In this document: one piece after another, positions 14,891 to 62,980 of the stretch
How positions within the stretch are numbered: position 1 is the first letter of the stretch
How the letters are laid out: every line of letters starts with the position of its first letter
Assembly (NCBI GenBank): GCA_947478005.1
Contig: CANJVG010000003.1
Span: forward strand, 1 to 64,000
DNA length: 64,000 bases
Reading direction: 5' to 3'
From: Bacteroidota bacterium
GTDB taxonomy: Bacteria; Bacteroidota; Bacteroidia; Chitinophagales; LD1
The notes under the pieces: generated by a model
Told to the model about the DNA's origin: nothing
The model's database searches: none
The model's input: the letters and a program-made list of their open reading frames with translations, nothing else
Translations under genes and position numbers: made by a program

Positions 14891-15261
14891 TTCCGAGATT
14901 TGCCGACAGTTCTTTGTAACCATGATTTGGATTTCTGAAAGCCATTGTCGCTGTTCTGATAAGCCCTGTCGGCTTTCCGAAATGCGCTGTCGCACTTCCG
15001 ATGGGGCCGTACACCGGTGTACGGGCTTGTCAGAATGGTGTACGCCACTTATCAGAGTCGTGTACGGGGGCATCGGAAAGGTGTACGCGGGCATCGGAAA
15101 GGTGTACGCGGGCATCAGAACGGTGTACGCGGGCAGAAGATTGATGTACGCGACTCATCAGAACGGTGTACAGGGGTATGGGAACGATGCAGAGGCTTAT
15201 CGGAAATGCGAATTTGTTTGTCAGAACGATGTACGGGGGCAGAAGAAGAGCGAATGAGAGT
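14891..15261. repeat. Array A: 21-bp-period degenerate array with inverted halves (TTCYGA left, TCRGAA right)
   Basis: Left anchors TTCYGA at 14891, 14933, 14954, 14975, 14996; right anchors at 15029, 15051, 15072, 15093, 15114, 15135, 15157, 15178, 15199, 15220, 15241. ATCGGAAAGGTGTACGCGGGC occurs twice in tandem. Confidence 0.9.
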
Positions 15262-32309: not shown

Positions 32310-32753
32310 TTTAATTGGCTACTTGGCAAATTAGCGGATTAATTATGAATACTTCATCAACCGCCCCTCGCTTTTAATTATAACGAACGATTTCCGTCTG
32401 CCAAGCTCTGCATAATCATCGTTTGCTTGGTTCACAAATTCTTCCATCACTTCTTCTTAAAGTTCGCCACGTCAATAATAGAGGGTGCGTTCAACGCGAT
32501 GAAGTGCCCCAACTCTTCATGCCTCCCTTTAATGTCTTTCATCAAGTCTGTGAATTTAGCCGGATAGCCTTTTGGCAATGCAACGAAGACAGGCTATCTT
32601 TCCATTAAGTCTCTCTCAGGAAGACAAAATCAAGTCATTTACTTATTAAAGTAAGTTATATACGTATGAAATTATTTTATTTTCTAGAAAAAGTAAAGTA
32701 GTTCAATGAGAATGTAACTAATTTTTATATGAAAATAGATTTAAGTTTTATGA

Positions 32754-32808
32754 AACCCACTAATTTACTTACAAAAGTTAGGAACTTTCATGAGTAAATT
32801 AGTGGGTT
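32754..32808. repeat. Nested inverted repeat: 16-bp perfect arms enclosing a second 6-bp stem
   Basis: AACCCACTAATTTACT (32754-32769) / AGTAAATTAGTGGGTT (32793-32808); inner AAAGTT-AGG-AACTTT (32774-32788). Confidence 0.9.
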
Positions 32809-33021
32809 CTGCTACATTTGTGAAGCCTTAGGTTCAATAGACACAGACTTAGAGCATACTTTTGAATACTTTGTGTAAAAAAAGTGGCACTTTGAGCAAT
32901 AAAACAGCAACTTAGTTCCGAAGAAGAGGCAGAAAAGGGAAAAGGAGACAGAAACAAAGCAAGCGGAAGATAACTCCGTAGAAAAGGGAGATCTTATCGG
33001 CTAAATAAAAGGAGGTGAACC

Positions 33022-39400: not shown

Positions 39401-42400
39401 GAAGCGCAGAACGTAGAGTATATCGAGTTCTGGATGATGGACCCGTTCCTCTACAATGTAAATCCTGCGGGCGGAAAATTGTTTTTCAACCTCGGAAATA
39501 TTTCAGAAGACATTTTGCGCGATTCGCGTATGAGTTACGAAAATGGAATTTATGCCGATACCAGTTTACTTGACCGGACTTCGTGGGGACGTGTTCCAAA
39601 ACAACCGGCACTTGTAGATGCCTTTGATGTGGATCAAAATTTACGAGCGCAACAGGATGTCGGCTTTGATGGCATGGGTGATGCTGAAGAAAGAGATAGA
39701 AAATCTATCTTCTTAAACAATGTGCAGGCAAGCGTAAATGCGTCCGTATTCACCAAATTGCAAAATGACCCCTCCAGCGATAATTACCAATATTTTAAAG
39801 ACGAAAATATCTATGGTAACGAGCCAAGTATTTTAAAGCGCTACGAAGGCTTTTGCGGAATTGAAGGAAACTCACCGGTGCAAACCAATAGCGTTTCCTC
39901 CACTGCCCAAACCAACTTGCCCGATAAGGAAGATTTAAATAAAGACAACACACTAAACGAAAACGAAGAGTACTTTCAATACGAAGTTGACCTTACGCGA
40001 AACACAATGGATGTAGGCCAGAATCCTTACATCATTTCAAAGGTTGATGGACAAACAGACGCAAATGGCGTGCAGGCTCATTGGTATCAATTCAGAATAC
40101 CAATAAAGGAATACGCTTCTCGGGTAGGTCAAATCCCCGATTTTAAATCCATTCAATTCATGCGTATGTTCATGACCGGTTGGCAGGATACCAATGTGGT
40201 TCTACGTTTTGCCACCTTAGAGTTGAGAAGAAATCAATGGCGCACCTACAATCTCAATATCAACGACCCTTGCGATGGGCTTGGAACCGATTTGCCGGGC
40301 TCAAGCTTAAATGTGGCCTCGGTAGGCATTGAAGAACATAGCGCAAAAACTCCGGTGAATTATGTATTGCCTCCAGACATTGAAAGAACACAGGCACTCG
40401 GTTCACAAACCAATCAGTTCGTTCAACAGAACGAGCAGTCGCTTGCCCTTAAAGTTTGCGACCTGAAAGATTGTTCCAGAAGAGCGGTCTTCAAAAACAT
40501 TACCCTCGATGTCAGAAGATACAAGCGCTTGAAAATGTACATTCATGCCAATAACATAGATGGGCAAATCGGAGTTAAAGACAGCGATGTAACGGCCTTT
40601 ATCCGTGTAGGCTCTGACTTTAAAGATAACTACTACGAATATGAGGTGCCGCTCAAAATTACCGCAGCCGGCAAATACGACAACAATAGCACTACCGACC
40701 GTCAAATTGTTTGGCCTTCAGAAAACTCCATCGACCTGGTATTGCAGGATTTCATTGCACTGAAAGAAAAGAGAAACTTAATTCCGGGTTGGAACCGCAC
40801 AAATGTTTATACCGAAAAAGTCGATGGACGATTGCGAAGTATAGTCGGCAACCCCGACATTGGTTCCATCAAAACAATAATGTTAGGTATCCATAACCCT
40901 ACCAAAGGCGACCCAAACAATCCTCTTGGTGGAGATGGTGATGATGGCCGCGAAAAATGTGTCGAAGTTTGGTTCGATGAATTGCGCGTTTCCGGTTTCG
41001 AAGAAAGCGGAGGGGCCGCTGCACTTGCTACCGTCAATGTGAAGTTAGCCGACTTGGGTAACATAAGCTTAGGTGGAAGCATGCACACCAAGGGCTTCGG
41101 GCAAGTCGAGCAAAAAATCGACCAGCGCTATAAAGACAATTTGTATAAGTATGATTTCGCCACCAATATTGAGGCAGGCAAACTTTTACCCGAAAAGGCC
41201 GGAATCAGAATTCCTTTTTATGCCAACTATTCCCAACAATTCAGCACTCCCGAATTCGACCCATATCAGTTCGATATTCCAACCAAGGACTACATGAAAG
41301 CTTTGAGGGAAGTGGTAGGGAAAGATTCCGCCCGTCATTATTTGCGGCAAATCCAAACCATCAACACCACGCGCGGTTACAACTTCAGCAATGTGCGCGT
41401 TGTGCCGCAAACCAAAGCGAAGAAACCACACATCTATGACCCCGGCAATTTCAATTTTACCTACGCTTATCGCGAACAATTACTGAGCGACCCTTATGTC
41501 GAAAAGAACTCCAAGAAAAACTGGTCGGGTATAATAGGCTGGAGCTTTGCGCCTCAATCAAAAGACTTCGCGCCTTTCAAAAAACTCATTCGCACAAAAT
41601 CAAAGTGGGCAGACATTATCAAAGATTTCAGCTTTAATCCTATGCCTTCCACCATGTCGTTCACCACCGATTTAAATCGCGATTTCACCGAAATAAAACT
41701 GCGTTCTTTGGGCGAAGTTGATTTTGCCATTCCGCCAACCTACAGCAAAAATTTCCGTTGGAACCGCAGCTACGTCTTCAAATACAATCCGTTCAAATCC
41801 CTTAGTATAGATTACAGTGCTACCGACAACGCGCGTATTGATGAACCTTACGGCCACATCGATACCAAGGAAAAGAAACAGGAAGTTTGGAGCAACATTG
41901 GCAATGGAGGACGTAACACCAACTACAATCAGCAGTTGGCCGTCAACTATACAATCCCTATAAACAAATTGCCCATTTTCGATTTCATAACCGCTACAGT
42001 CGGTTATGCGGCTACCTATAATTGGACGGCCTTGCCTTGGCAAAAAGATTCAGCCAGTGGCAAATTAGTGCAGAACTCCTTGGGCAACATTATTAATAAC
42101 ACCCAAAACGACCGCGGCAAAGTAGACCTGAACTTCAAAAAGCTTTATGACAAAGTTCCCTTCCTCAAAGCCTACAACGCACCAAATCCGAATGCAGGTG
42201 ATAAAAAAGAAAATGATAAAAAGCGCGAAGCGATAAAAAAAGCACGCGCAAAAATCAAAGAAGAAATTGTAAAGCTGAAAGAGAAAAAAGTGACCTTGAC
42301 AGCAGAGCTAGACAAAGCAAAAGACGAATTGAAAAACGATACCGTTAAGCAGAACAAACAGAAACTGGATATTGCCAAGGCAAAAGAAGAACTCAAACAG

Positions 42401-44083: not shown

Positions 44084-44109
44084 TTTTTTGGCAACTTTTT
44101 TCGAAACAA

Positions 44110-44427
44110 TTCGAGCGTTTAATGCCTCTTTCGAACCGCTAAATGCCGATTTCGGAGTGCTATTTCTTTGCTTTGGGGAGAGATTAAGCGGCTTTGAAGC
44201 GGTACGAAGCTATCTTTTTGCCCTGTAAAGAAAGAACTTAGCCCCCCAAAACAAAAACCCAGCACCCCGAAGCTAAAACTTAGTCGCCCAAAGACGCAAT
44301 CTAGCACTACAAAGACGCAAATTAGTCAAGTAAAGACGCATTGCAGCACTACGAAGACGCTTTGCAGGGGTGCGAAGCCACGTTGCAGGGGGTAAAAATG
44401 CCTTTTTAGCACTTTTTTGCGGTTTTT
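44110..44427. repeat. Array B: 21-bp-period degenerate array with inverted halves
   Basis: [T/C]AG anchors exactly 21 bp apart at 44239, 44260, 44281, 44302, 44323, 44344, 44365, 44386, 44407; left half carries inverse motif (TTCGGAGTGCTA about 44151 versus TAGCACTACAAAG at 44302). Confidence 0.85.
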
Positions 44428-44549
44428 GCCCAAAACAAGATTCAGTCTATTTTCTTCTACCCAAATGGTTAAAGAATCAAAACTGTATAAATTTCAATCA
44501 ACATAAATTCGTAGAAAAGTCGTTAGTAGAATAGAACCCCACAAACCAA

Positions 44550-57247: not shown

Positions 57248-58336
57248 CTATGGAATGGTGTAGTTGATTTGTGTGGTGGCGTTAGTGGTGCTGTGCTCTG
57301 GCAAGGTGAATGTTGTAGGGGTGGCACTAAGCCAATCGCCATGATAATTGTAGATGTTTCCATCCGTATCATACATGGCATAGAGATAATAAGTGCCAGG
57401 GTGCATGTAGTTGAAAGTGAAGTCATGGTCGTTGGAAGGAAGGCTGACATAGCGCGAACGACATTTCAGGTTAATGGTGATGCCGGAGAACAATGGCTGT
57501 GTAGTAATCATCAACAGCACCTTTTTATTCGGATTGGGTGAATGAGTTCCGTCAAAAGAATAGCTGATAGTTGCTTTGCCAAGGTAAGGTTGCTGCGCTT
57601 CGGTATATGGGTCGGCACCGGTGGTAGAATAAAAAATAGATTCAGGTTGACCGGTGAAGGAAGGGGAGAAATCTTTTGTCAAAGTTTTTTGTGGGAAATT
57701 AAAATGACTTACTGCATTGGCGCAGGAAGTAAGGTCTTGCAAACCTGCGCTCCAACTCATGTGCAAAACAGGAGCTGTCAATGAATTCAGTTTGTTGGTG
57801 TATGACCTAAGGGTCATACTATCGCCTTTAAAAATCACCTCGCTGTAGGCGCGGTTTCTGCCCTTCACTATTTCCGAGAAGAGGTAATACGATTGCGCAC
57901 TCGTTTCCGAAACACTGTCGGCCAGCAAATAGGAAACCCTTGTAAACCCCGCAAAGCCGCCACCGTTTCTGAAACATACTTTGTAGCTGCCGTTGTATTT
58001 GGCAATGAAGAAAGACATGTGTATGTCGTTCAGACTGTCCAATTCATTCTTCGATGAAATCTGATTTTCAGAAATCGGTCTGAAATCTACAATCCATTCG
58101 GGATAGCTACCGAGCCCCGTGGTAGAAGTAACAGGTCCATCCCAGATTCCTTTTATCTTACTCAACAAGCCAAAACCCAGGGTGTTGTCGAGGGTGTAAA
58201 TGGTGGTGTCAACGGGTATTTGGGTGGTATCTACAGGAGGAGTGACGTTAGGGTTGGGTTTGTCTTTGCACGAGTTGGCAAAGAAAGCGAACACAAATAC
58301 CGACAGCAGAATCGCAAGGACCGAATATTTTTTCAT
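57248..58336 (-). CDS. Uncharacterised lipoprotein-like secreted protein
   Basis: MKKYSVLAILLSVFVFAFFANSCKDKPNPNVTPP lipobox-like start. Confidence 0.8.
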   Translation of the reverse strand: MKKYSVLAILLSVFVFAFFANSCKDKPNPNVTPPVDTTQIPVDTTIYTLDNTLGFGLLSKIKGIWDGPVTSTTGLGSYPEWIVDFRPISENQISSKNELDSLNDIHMSFFIAKYNGSYKVCFRNGGGFAGFTRVSYLLADSVSETSAQSYYLFSEIVKGRNRAYSEVIFKGDSMTLRSYTNKLNSLTAPVLHMSWSAGLQDLTSCANAVSHFNFPQKTLTKDFSPSFTGQPESIFYSTTGADPYTEAQQPYLGKATISYSFDGTHSPNPNKKVLLMITTQPLFSGITINLKCRSRYVSLPSNDHDFTFNYMHPGTYYLYAMYDTDGNIYNYHGDWLSATPTTFTLPEHSTTNATTQINYTIP

Positions 58337-58456: not shown

Positions 58457-58771
58457 ATGAGAAAAGTTGACATTGTTTCTAAAATAGCCGATGTAACAGG
58501 AGTGCCGAAAACAGATGTATTGATTACCCTGGAGGCATTTTTTAAGGAAGTTAAAAACCAGGTGAAAACCGGAGAGAGCGTTTATGTACGGGGCTTCGGA
58601 AGTTTTGTGCCCAAACTGCGGGCAGAGAAAATAGGCCGCATTATTTCGCGCAAAGAATCTTGCGTTATTCCTGCTCATTATATTCCGGCCTTCAAACCTG
58701 CCCAGATTTTTGTGGATCAGGTGAAGAAGAATTTTAAGCCGGGGGATGAGAAAAAGGAGGAGCGGGCATAG
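58457..58771 (+). CDS. HU/IHF-family DNA-binding protein
   Basis: MRKVDIVSKIADVTGVPKTDVLITLEAFFKEVKNQVKTGESVYVRGFGSFVPKLRAEKIGR. Confidence 0.93.
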   Translation: MRKVDIVSKIADVTGVPKTDVLITLEAFFKEVKNQVKTGESVYVRGFGSFVPKLRAEKIGRIISRKESCVIPAHYIPAFKPAQIFVDQVKKNFKPGDEKKEERA

Positions 58772-58881: not shown

Positions 58882-58946
58882 GAACAGGATATGAAAAGTC
58901 AAGAGCCGAAGAATTTCTTCGGCTCTTGACTTTTCATATCCTGTTC
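58882..58946. repeat. Perfect 65-bp palindrome (32-bp arms, 1-nt centre)
   Basis: GAACAGGATATGAAAAGTCAAGAGCCGAAGAA - T - TTCTTCGGCTCTTGACTTTTCATATCCTGTTC. Confidence 0.95.
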
Positions 58947-59000
58947 TGAATTTATTCCGATATTTGGTTTTTTAACACGTTTAGTGTTCCCCATCCCGAA

Positions 59001-59471
59001 TTTAATGAATCCGGACTCGAATTGAACGGAGCTGGAGGCGAGATAAACCACACTTTACCTACATTGAATTACCGAAGACCCACATTGAATCAGTAAAGAC
59101 TTAAATTGAATTAGTAAAGACATAGATTGAACAAGTAAATACTTACATTGTATTAGCAAATACTGACGTTTTATAAGTAGTTACCTAAGTTTTGTTAGGT
59201 AAACATGACATAAGACAAGCTTAACCTTGAAAAAAACAAGTATTTGCCTTGATTGTATCATGTTTTACCTTCATTGTTCAAGTTCAAATGACCTCTGACC
59301 TCATTCAATGAGGTTCTGGGGCTATTCAATGGACATTTTGGACTATACAAACAGGTTAAACAGCCATTCTTACAGCCTCCGAACCTGTTCAATTGAATTC
59401 TGGCTTTGTTCAAACAGAGTCTGTTGCCATTCAAGCCAAATCCCGAGTTCTTCAACCCAATGAACCCATAA
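59001..59471. repeat. Array C: about 22 degenerate units in exact 21-bp register, two sub-arrays of opposite orientation
   Basis: Sub-array C1 in register at 59001, 59022, (59043), 59064, 59085, 59106, 59127, 59148, 59169, 59190, 59211, 59232, 59253, 59274; sub-array C2 at 59304, 59325, 59346, 59367, 59388, 59409, 59430, 59451. Confidence 0.92.
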
Positions 59472-59601
59472 ATTTTATGAAGCCACTTGCTTCGGACTGC
59501 TTTGTAGAATACGGACAATCTCTATTCCCATTTAATTAAGTTTGTTTACTGTGAAGCGGATGACCGCCTCCGTCATTTCCACTTAACATTAAACCCGCAA
59601 C

Positions 59602-60405
59602 TTGCGCCCTATGAGTGAACGAAAACGAAAAGTAAAGGTGGTTGTCATCTCCGATATTCATTTGGGTTTTGTGGGTTGTCGCGCCAAAGAGCTCAATAAA
59701 TATTTAAAAAGTGTGGAGCCCGAAATACTCATTATCAATGGCGATTTCATCGACATCTGGCAGTTTCGTACCTACTATTTTCCCAAGTCACACTCCAAGG
59801 TATTGCAGCGCGTGTTCAAATTTATTTCGGAGGGCGTGAAGGTTTATTACCTCACCGGCAACCACGATGAAATGTTGCGCAGATACAGCGGGTTGAATTT
59901 GGGCAATCTGGAATTGGAGGACAAATTGGTGCTGGATTTGGATGGGAAAAAGCATTGGTTTTTTCACGGAGATATTTTTGATGTGACCATGCAGGGCTCG
60001 CGGTGGCTCGCCAAGTTAGGGACCACGGGCTACGAACTCTTAATTCTAATCAACAAACTCGTCAACTTTTTTCTCACGCTTTTTGGCCGCCAAATATCTT
60101 CCTTTTCGCAACAGGTAAAATTTGCCAGCAAGCGCGGTATTAAGAAATTGCACAACCACGAAACCACCGCTGCCGAAATTGCTTTGGACCAAGGCTATGA
60201 TGTGGTCATAAACGGGCACGTTCATTTGCCCTGCATTAAAGAAATCAAAACCGAACGCGGCAGCGTGCTCTATTTAAACAGTGGTGATTGGGTAGAAAAC
60301 ATGACGGCCCTGGAATACAATAATGGCGAATGGAAGTTGGTTTGGTATAAGAATCTGATTTTCCCCGAAACATGGCTAAAGGTAGAAGAAGAAGATTTGC
60401 CATAG
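59602..60405 (+). CDS. Metallophosphoesterase, UDP-2,3-diacylglucosamine hydrolase (LpxH)-like
   Basis: VVVISDIHLGFVGCRAKELNKYL; IINGDFIDIW; LTGNHDEMLRRYSG; WFFHGDIFD; VINGHVHLP. Confidence 0.9.
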   Translation: MRPMSERKRKVKVVVISDIHLGFVGCRAKELNKYLKSVEPEILIINGDFIDIWQFRTYYFPKSHSKVLQRVFKFISEGVKVYYLTGNHDEMLRRYSGLNLGNLELEDKLVLDLDGKKHWFFHGDIFDVTMQGSRWLAKLGTTGYELLILINKLVNFFLTLFGRQISSFSQQVKFASKRGIKKLHNHETTAAEIALDQGYDVVINGHVHLPCIKEIKTERGSVLYLNSGDWVENMTALEYNNGEWKLVWYKNLIFPETWLKVEEEDLP

Positions 60406-60580: not shown

Positions 60581-62980
60581 ATGAAAAAACTCTACGCTGT
60601 AATTTTTGTCACCACATTTTTTCTCCAATCTCTATCTGCCCAAAACGGTGAACTCTCCGGCTTAGTTAAAGAATCAGACAATGGTGAGACGGTTAGTTCC
60701 GTAGCCGTTAAATATGGTAAAGGCAAAGGCGTGATAACCGATGCCGTGGGCAAATATGTTCTGTCGCTGCCCGCAGGCGAATATGAAATTTCCTTTAGTG
60801 CCATCGGTTACAAAACCCAAAAGCATAAAATAACTCTGGTTGCAGGCGACAAACAAAAGCTCGATATCAAGTTAAATTCAGACGTTTTTAAGTTGAATGA
60901 AGTGGTGTCCGTTAGCCAATATAAAAAGAATGCGGCTAAAGAAACTGTTTCGACCAGTGTAATTGGTAGGGATCAGATTAAGAACACAAACAGCAATGAC
61001 CTAGGCGAAGTGGTCAATAAAACATCGGGTGTGCTGGTGCAGGACGGGCAGATTTCTATTCGCGGAGGAAGCTCTTATTCGTATGGAGTTGGTTCGCGCA
61101 CAGCGGTGCTTACCGATGGTTTATCGCTAAGCAGTGCCGATTTGGGTCAAACACAAAACACTTTTGTTCCATTAGAAAATGTAAAACAAGTAGAGGTTAT
61201 TAAAGGAGCATCTTCGGTTATTTATGGCTCTTCAGCATTGAATGGTGTGATCAACGTTATCACCGATTGGCCAAAGGAATCGGAACCCCGAACGGAGATA
61301 GAAACCAATGCCGGAGTTTCTGATCAACCAATAGACCCACGCAAGAAGTGGTGGGGTTCATCTCCACCGTTTTTGGGCAGCATCAATATTAATCACCAAC
61401 GCAGAATCAAAGATTTGCAACTGGTGGTGGGTGCCAACATTTCCTATAACAGCAGTTTTTTGCAAGGCGATAACAGCTGGCGGTTGCGAGCTATGTTTAA
61501 AACACGGTACATAGACCCGAAGCATGTAGGTATTACTTATGGCGTAAACGGTAGTGTTCAATTAGAGCGCGCTGACCAATTTTTTATTTCCAGCGATTTA
61601 GATTCGGGAGCTTTGAGGCCTGCTGCTTCTTCAAGTAGCGATTACAACAAGATTACCATTGATCCGCATTTTAATTACAGCAACCCCAAGGGGCACAACT
61701 ACAAACTCAATGTCCGCTACATGAATATTTTCCGGAAGGGAAACGGATCAGATATAGATGCAGTGAGCCATTCTATGATTATCGACAATCAATATCAATA
61801 TCGGTTTAGAAAAGATTTGTTGATCGTTACGGCCGGTGTTCCGTTTTCTTTCGGCTATTCGCAAAGCAATCTTTATTCAAGGAGCGGTCCTCACTTTAAT
61901 TTTAACTGGGCCCTTTATACCCAAGTGGAATTCAATTATAAGGTGCTGTCGCTACAGGGTGGTTTTCGCTATGAAATAGCCGGTTTAGATACACTAATGA
62001 ACTATGGCCTTCCGACCACCATAAAAAACAAGCAAGTAGGCCTTCCTGTTTTCAGAGCCGGCATGAATATTCAGGCAAGCAAGTCAACAAATATCCGGCT
62101 AAGTTGGGGGCAGGGTTATCGCATACCTACCATTGCCGAAAAATATTTGGCCGCTCAATTTACAGGCATTGTAAACATTGTGCCTAACGATACCCTTAAA
62201 ACCGAAACCGGCTGGAATTTTGAATTTGGCATACAACAGGGTGTACAGATTAAAAACTGGAAATTAGGCGTTGACTTTGCCTTCTTTTGGCAGGAGAGTA
62301 AAAACTTTATTGAGTATAATGTGGGGATATGGGACAATAAATATTCCAATGGCGACACCATTCTTCCCAAATCTTTTGAGGCCTTTCCCGGAAAGCTTTT
62401 AGGCCCTAAGCCTGTTAATATCGAAAACTCGCGTACTGCTGGCTATGAAATCGGATTAATGAGCAGTGGCAAAATTGGTCCTGTTGGTTTGAGGATTAAC
62501 GCAGGCTACACCTACAATTTTCCTACCAGAAAGGATGGTGACACTGGCAGTATAGGTTACAGTACGAAGCAATTCTTGCATGATATGTTTGCCTTTAACA
62601 GCAAGCGCGTGGATTCTGCTACTAAGCAATATATATTGGGCTATCGCATCCGCCACTTAGTGCGTGCAGATATTGAAATTTCCTTTTGGAAAGCATACCT
62701 GGGCGCTACCTTCTATTATGCGTCCACCCCTGAAAAGGTACCAAAATTTTTTAAAGATGTTTCCAATGCTATATTCCACGATGAGAATGCTGTAGACAAA
62801 TACTTAGCCAGTCGCGGCAATGGCGATTTTGCTATTGATTTGCGAGCAGGAATAAAATTTACAGACCGTTTTACGATGGGGTTTATTGTCAAGAATGTGA
62901 CCAACAATCTCTACTCGCTCAGACCTGGTCGGCCAGAGCCATTGCGAAACTATACCTTCCAGTTTAGGTATAACTTTTAA
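60581..62980 (+). CDS. TonB-dependent outer-membrane receptor with N-terminal carboxypeptidase-like domain
   Basis: GELSGLVKESDNGETVSSVAVKYGKGKGVITDAVGKYVLSLPAGEYEISFSAIGYKTQ; plug VLVQDGQISIRGGSSYSYGVGSRTAVLTDGLSL; C-terminal YTFQFRYNF. Confidence 0.95.
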   Translation: MKKLYAVIFVTTFFLQSLSAQNGELSGLVKESDNGETVSSVAVKYGKGKGVITDAVGKYVLSLPAGEYEISFSAIGYKTQKHKITLVAGDKQKLDIKLNSDVFKLNEVVSVSQYKKNAAKETVSTSVIGRDQIKNTNSNDLGEVVNKTSGVLVQDGQISIRGGSSYSYGVGSRTAVLTDGLSLSSADLGQTQNTFVPLENVKQVEVIKGASSVIYGSSALNGVINVITDWPKESEPRTEIETNAGVSDQPIDPRKKWWGSSPPFLGSININHQRRIKDLQLVVGANISYNSSFLQGDNSWRLRAMFKTRYIDPKHVGITYGVNGSVQLERADQFFISSDLDSGALRPAASSSSDYNKITIDPHFNYSNPKGHNYKLNVRYMNIFRKGNGSDIDAVSHSMIIDNQYQYRFRKDLLIVTAGVPFSFGYSQSNLYSRSGPHFNFNWALYTQVEFNYKVLSLQGGFRYEIAGLDTLMNYGLPTTIKNKQVGLPVFRAGMNIQASKSTNIRLSWGQGYRIPTIAEKYLAAQFTGIVNIVPNDTLKTETGWNFEFGIQQGVQIKNWKLGVDFAFFWQESKNFIEYNVGIWDNKYSNGDTILPKSFEAFPGKLLGPKPVNIENSRTAGYEIGLMSSGKIGPVGLRINAGYTYNFPTRKDGDTGSIGYSTKQFLHDMFAFNSKRVDSATKQYILGYRIRHLVRADIEISFWKAYLGATFYYASTPEKVPKFFKDVSNAIFHDENAVDKYLASRGNGDFAIDLRAGIKFTDRFTMGFIVKNVTNNLYSLRPGRPEPLRNYTFQFRYNF

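Follow-up and report, generated by a model that had tools for sequence, protein, structure and literature searches.

Array C, the 21-bp repeat array lying between an HU-family gene and an LpxH-like gene in the window (the whole 64,000-nucleotide stretch analyzed here), is best read as one member of a satellite-like class of intergenic arrays and not as an element of the hup-lpxH locus. The arrays of this class repeat every 21 bp, which corresponds to two turns of B-DNA, and each has its own unit sequence, no motif common to the arrays being seen. They lengthen by in-register duplication of unit blocks. The explanation that we favor, with a probability of roughly 0.4, is that a bound protein keeps arrays grown in this way to a spacing of two helical turns.

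The periodic core of array C comprises about 20 units of 21 bp and extends from 58957 to 59386 (unstranded), as delimited by lag-21 identity and shuffling. Within 58944-59480 the best 126-bp window showed an identity of 0.71 at lag 21, whereas none of 300 dinucleotide shuffles exceeded 0.49 at any lag from 10 to 60, confirming that the periodicity is not due to chance. Period 21 was independently reported by TRF at 59060-59164 and 59237-59284. Direct reading places the units at 59001+21n up to 59274, and the best sub-array (59064-59294, + strand, TRF period 21) consists of 11 units in perfect register, all of which, from 59064 to 59274, carry an A at position 8. The orientation switches at a perfect 17-bp palindrome (59298-59314, unstranded), which reads ACCTCATTCAATGAGGT, that is ACCTCATT-C-AATGAGGT. 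An inverted second sub-array (59304-59471, - strand) follows with a phase shift of 9 bp, its units falling at 59304+21n to 59451. This second half matched the reverse complement of the first-half profile (p = 0.001) but not the first half on the forward strand (p = 0.57), and taken by itself it reached a lag-21 identity of 0.476 versus a shuffle maximum of 0.43. Register, conserved adenine, phase shift, palindrome and flip had all been put forward in a preliminary description of this DNA and are borne out. Its estimate of about 22 units is reasonable, although some of them are poor, as units are weak before ~59060 and a weaker tail reaches ~59471. Neighboring units of array C are ~53% identical, and identity is near baseline (0.27-0.30) at a distance of eight units. 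A heptad-repeat (7-residue) coding sequence was rejected, since every one of the frames contains 8-13 stops.

Pfam searches confirmed the two neighbors of array C that had been named earlier. To the left lies an HU-family DNA-binding protein (P0001, 104 aa, 58457-58771, + strand; PF00216, E = 3.5e-19) and to the right an LpxH-like calcineurin-like metallophosphoesterase (P0002, 264 aa, 59611-60405, + strand; PF00149, E = 9.5e-16). The tie between the array and HU or the hup-lpxH locus that the preliminary description implied was not upheld, because arrays of the same period adjoin unrelated genes by the dozens. Among the relatives examined none has hup beside lpxH, an arrangement seen in the present genome alone. 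An orthologue of the HU gene next to array C occurs in 17 of the 18 genus genomes searched, and HU genes of any kind in all 18, mostly two each; both counts include array-free genomes. As neither the HU gene nor its copy number tracks the arrays in these 18 genomes, an HU-dependent element was rejected.

Several other features were noted around this locus. Between hup and array C lies an inverted repeat (58882-58946, unstranded) whose 32-bp arms are separated by a single base and which is not followed by a T run; long palindromes next to arrays in general showed no clear enrichment (9 in 21.9 kb versus 21 in 74.5 kb). Between hup and the conserved gene upstream of it, a 362-aa reading frame without Pfam match occupies 57248-58336, a place taken by a short spacer in the relatives compared. 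Downstream of the LpxH-like gene, at 60581-62980, lies a TonB-dependent receptor gene, and DNA similar to this region is found downstream of lpxH in several relatives. In the congener G016 an insertion of ~0.9 kb upstream of hup (contig C322, L176, 2870-3830) contains a 21-bp array; the same site is a short spacer without insertion in G004, G014 and G017.

The host genome (4.0 Mb in 230 contigs), whose closest named relatives, by which it was placed, are uncultured Bacteroidetes/Chitinophagales MAGs, was sampled over 452 kb. In this sample 24 clusters were obtained at lag 21, while most other lags gave 0-2, except for 42, 63 and 84. Once a cluster lying inside a gene had been excluded, along with others that overlapped long reading frames, a working set of 22 noncoding arrays remained. 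The congener G017 likewise yielded 22 noncoding arrays in 940 kb. Extrapolation gives totals of ~190 arrays in the host genome, perhaps 100-200, and ~90 in G017. Contig L178, which is all N, was left out of the analysis. With TRF, which accepts any period and allows indels, noncoding arrays of at least three copies were found almost only at 21 bp or at or near its multiples. Arrays consist of 7-23 units (roughly 150-480 bp) and occupy 40 of 124 spacers of at least 300 bp, about a third. A heptad-coding test revealed no consistently open frame across arrays, in line with their being noncoding.

Three further arrays of the same kind as array C, all unstranded, are present in the window. Arrays A (14902-15248) and B (44089-44435) were detected by both TRF and lag-21 analysis and are built from different units (GTGTACGCGGGCATCAGAAAG and AAAGACGCATTGCAGCACTAC, respectively), and array D (32601-32963) is a weaker member with a lag-21 identity of 0.53. 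Array A also changes orientation at a palindrome, CCGTACACCGGTGTACGG, near 15008 (flip p = 0.008). A lag-21 signal at 42184-42370 falls within a 2556-aa gene and probably reflects protein repeats of the heptad type, without relation to the arrays.

Units diverge strongly and stay in phase. Over all arrays, neighboring units are on average ~54% identical (baseline ~0.25-0.28), and similarity decays with distance, reaching baseline within five units in some arrays. In 563 unit junctions only ~11 one-base shifts were counted, roughly one per 500 mismatches, whereas one gap opening per 9.2 mismatches occurs in intergenic repeats dispersed through these genomes. Frame slips are thus ~50 times rarer in the arrays than in other intergenic repeats, a factor that is an upper estimate because lag-21 detection favors intact, indel-free arrays. 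The register effect is nevertheless argued to be real, as the indel-tolerant TRF gives the same picture and the arrays are long. In many arrays 63-bp windows are 0.9-1.0 identical at a distance of 2, 4, 5, 6 or 7 units, while adjacent units in these arrays are mostly 0.62-0.78 identical and the off-register maximum is 0.67. The block repeats are strictly in register, and the arrays therefore grow by duplication of blocks of whole units, as in the higher-order pattern of satellites. Palindromic units were found in 14 of 28 arrays (p < 0.01 against column permutation). With the center chosen blind, covariation between palindrome arms was hardly above expectation (1560 observed versus 1527 expected); an earlier signal of covarying arms was discarded as arising mostly from selection of the center. 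No 10.5-bp sub-period or A/T periodicity was found in the arrays.

Arrays are common in the host genome (G000) and G017, present in G016 and, at low copy number, in G009. A sample of 251 kb from the relatives with the highest LpxH identity (G014, G015 and G004) yielded no noncoding array. Smaller samples from most other congeners and from one genome of the same family were likewise negative, except that G012 gave a weak candidate. Across Bacteroidota, 80 lpxH loci (1.5 Mb) showed no comparable excess of arrays. Positions turn over between species: in relatives the flanks of arrays B and C and of two others carry no array. An array adjoins the 3' end of a carboxylesterase gene in G000 and again in G017; the units of the two arrays are unrelated, and the shared location may be a coincidence. 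Housekeeping genes and genes for secreted proteins both occur next to the arrays, and the orientation of the flanking genes is mixed (18 tandem, 12 divergent, 10 convergent); as a class, the arrays are therefore elements of neither promoters nor terminators. The genes on the two sides of an array lie apart in relatives, but since nearly all genes across spacers of at least 200 bp do so too, this base rate makes the observation uninformative and a role of arrays as rearrangement breakpoints was rejected. A dispersed intergenic REP-like repeat of ~220 bp (GTTTGAGCGCAAC...GCGCGAGTT...CTTGAACTTTTGGTTCTTTTGGTTCAAGCCAAAAGAAC) with a strong hairpin occurs in both G000 (C2:47552-47885, L007; C3:69920-70145, L008) and G017 (C9:6390-7072, L061; C6:1503-1741, L225), several copies lying directly beside arrays. 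Carriage by a single mobile element was rejected, as the arrays share no termini, the REP-like repeat adjoins only a few of them and long palindromes show no clear excess near them.

The fixed period, the kept register, in-register duplication, palindromic units, lineage restriction and position turnover are all consistent with a DNA-binding protein, occurring only in array-bearing species, that would contact the same face of the helix at 21-bp intervals. Since the period equals two turns of B-DNA, a single contact per two turns would be its simplest cause, and because about half of the arrays have palindromic units the protein would probably be a dimer. It would tolerate almost any sequence provided that the spacing holds, so that units may drift while 1-bp indels are removed, and it would either favor duplication at the 21-bp step or make off-step indels harmful. 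Bound arrays would then form protein-coated segments of roughly 150-480 bp between genes. Some points count against a bound protein: the missing 10.5-bp sub-period, the scant arm covariation and the bias of lag-21 detection; moreover, it is unusual for a protein to recognize spacing and ignore sequence. Gene content was compared by family searches, and none of the families tested (reverse transcriptase, Ku, HU) tracks the arrays.

A neutral process with a 21-bp step is nearly as likely as the bound protein. Here, a lineage-specific peculiarity of replication or repair would duplicate spare intergenic DNA in 21-bp steps without any function, and flips and palindromes would come from template switching. 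Such a neutral or selfish satellite, which we regard as a serious though tentative alternative, fits the turnover of positions, the occurrence of arrays in any gene orientation and in about a third of the longer spacers, the in-register block duplications and the flips at palindromes. Yet a divergence of ~46% between neighbors almost without indels is unexpected under neutrality, and we know of no enzyme that makes 21-bp steps. Of about the same or slightly lower probability is a chromosomal element defined by its spacing and independent of sequence, made and kept from arbitrary intergenic DNA by a 21-bp-ruler protein or enzyme in some lineages of one genus.

It is improbable that each array is the private operator of a local regulator, comparable to plasmid iterons or centromere repeats. 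Private conserved cores, the palindromic units of ~13-17 bp in about half of the arrays, and the G016 array at the hup insertion, which directly precedes a Cro/C1-type HTH gene, speak for this idea. However, it demands on the order of 100-200 regulators, only two proteins out of 65 at array flanks are of the Cro/C1-type HTH family, none of the flanking families is enriched and a clear orientation bias is lacking. Intrinsically curved DNA, in which any unit repeated every 21 bp would add its bends in phase, is a slightly weaker candidate. A dinucleotide wedge model predicted strong curvature for about half of the arrays and for array C a z of 4.0 against dinucleotide shuffles, but many arrays are predicted to be straight (z below 0), the mean z against column-shuffled periodic controls is only 0.7 and the 10.5-bp A/T periodicity is missing. 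Predicted curvature might thus account for some arrays, including C, and not for all. An array of transcribed RNA hairpins is very improbable despite the palindromic units in about half of the arrays, as G-T mismatches are depleted just as A-C ones are, instead of being enriched, and gene orientation shows no bias. A structured RNA family was rejected, as an Rfam search of the window gave no match and pairing does not tolerate G-U. Adenine-directed mutagenesis of the diversity-generating retroelement type is contradicted by a symmetric substitution matrix; reverse transcriptase had zero matches in the host genome and its presence does not track arrays. Ku end joining was dismissed, as Ku is absent from all 18 genomes.

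Bacterial tandem repeats normally have arbitrary periods. That nearly all noncoding arrays of one genome have a two-turn period on unrelated sequences, with few slips, suggests a molecular ruler of a new kind. The arrays offer a bacterial model in which to study the origin of satellite-like DNA and how it stays in phase, and they also raise the question of what use a cell could make of information that lies in spacing only. An earlier description of fixed-21-bp arrays was not found in the open-access literature, to which the search was confined.

Compared with known systems, the arrays differ from CRISPR arrays in that their units abut without spacers and vary among themselves. They resemble REP/BIME elements in being intergenic, palindromic and of alternating orientation, but those share one sequence per genome whereas each array here has a private unit, and this assignment was rejected. 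With plasmid iterons and partition (centromere) repeats they have in common direct repeats about two helical turns apart and a motif private to each element, but they lie on chromosomal contigs, number tens to hundreds per genome and have unrelated neighbors; no Rep or Par family is among the listed flanking proteins, excluding this class as well. Beggiatoaceae carry dispersed intergenic direct repeats of a heptanucleotide (TAACTGA), also in many arrays within one lineage, but there one 7-bp sequence is fixed, while here the spacing is fixed and the sequence is not (PMC4679880). Like bacterial minisatellites (VNTR), the arrays are noncoding, head-to-tail, lineage-specific and duplicated by whole units; ordinary minisatellites, however, have varied periods, whereas here nearly all noncoding arrays are of 21 bp, with units that differ by about half and still keep register. 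The duplicative, noncoding nature of the arrays is therefore of a known kind, whereas a fixed period combined with free sequence falls outside it. With eukaryotic satellites containing higher-order repeats they share diverged monomers in near-identical multi-monomer blocks and rapid turnover between species, but they are bacterial, short (150-480 bp) and dispersed, with a 21-bp monomer fixed across unrelated sequences. If the ruler reading were true, they would represent a bacterial counterpart of satellite DNA in which a bound protein determines how long the monomer is.
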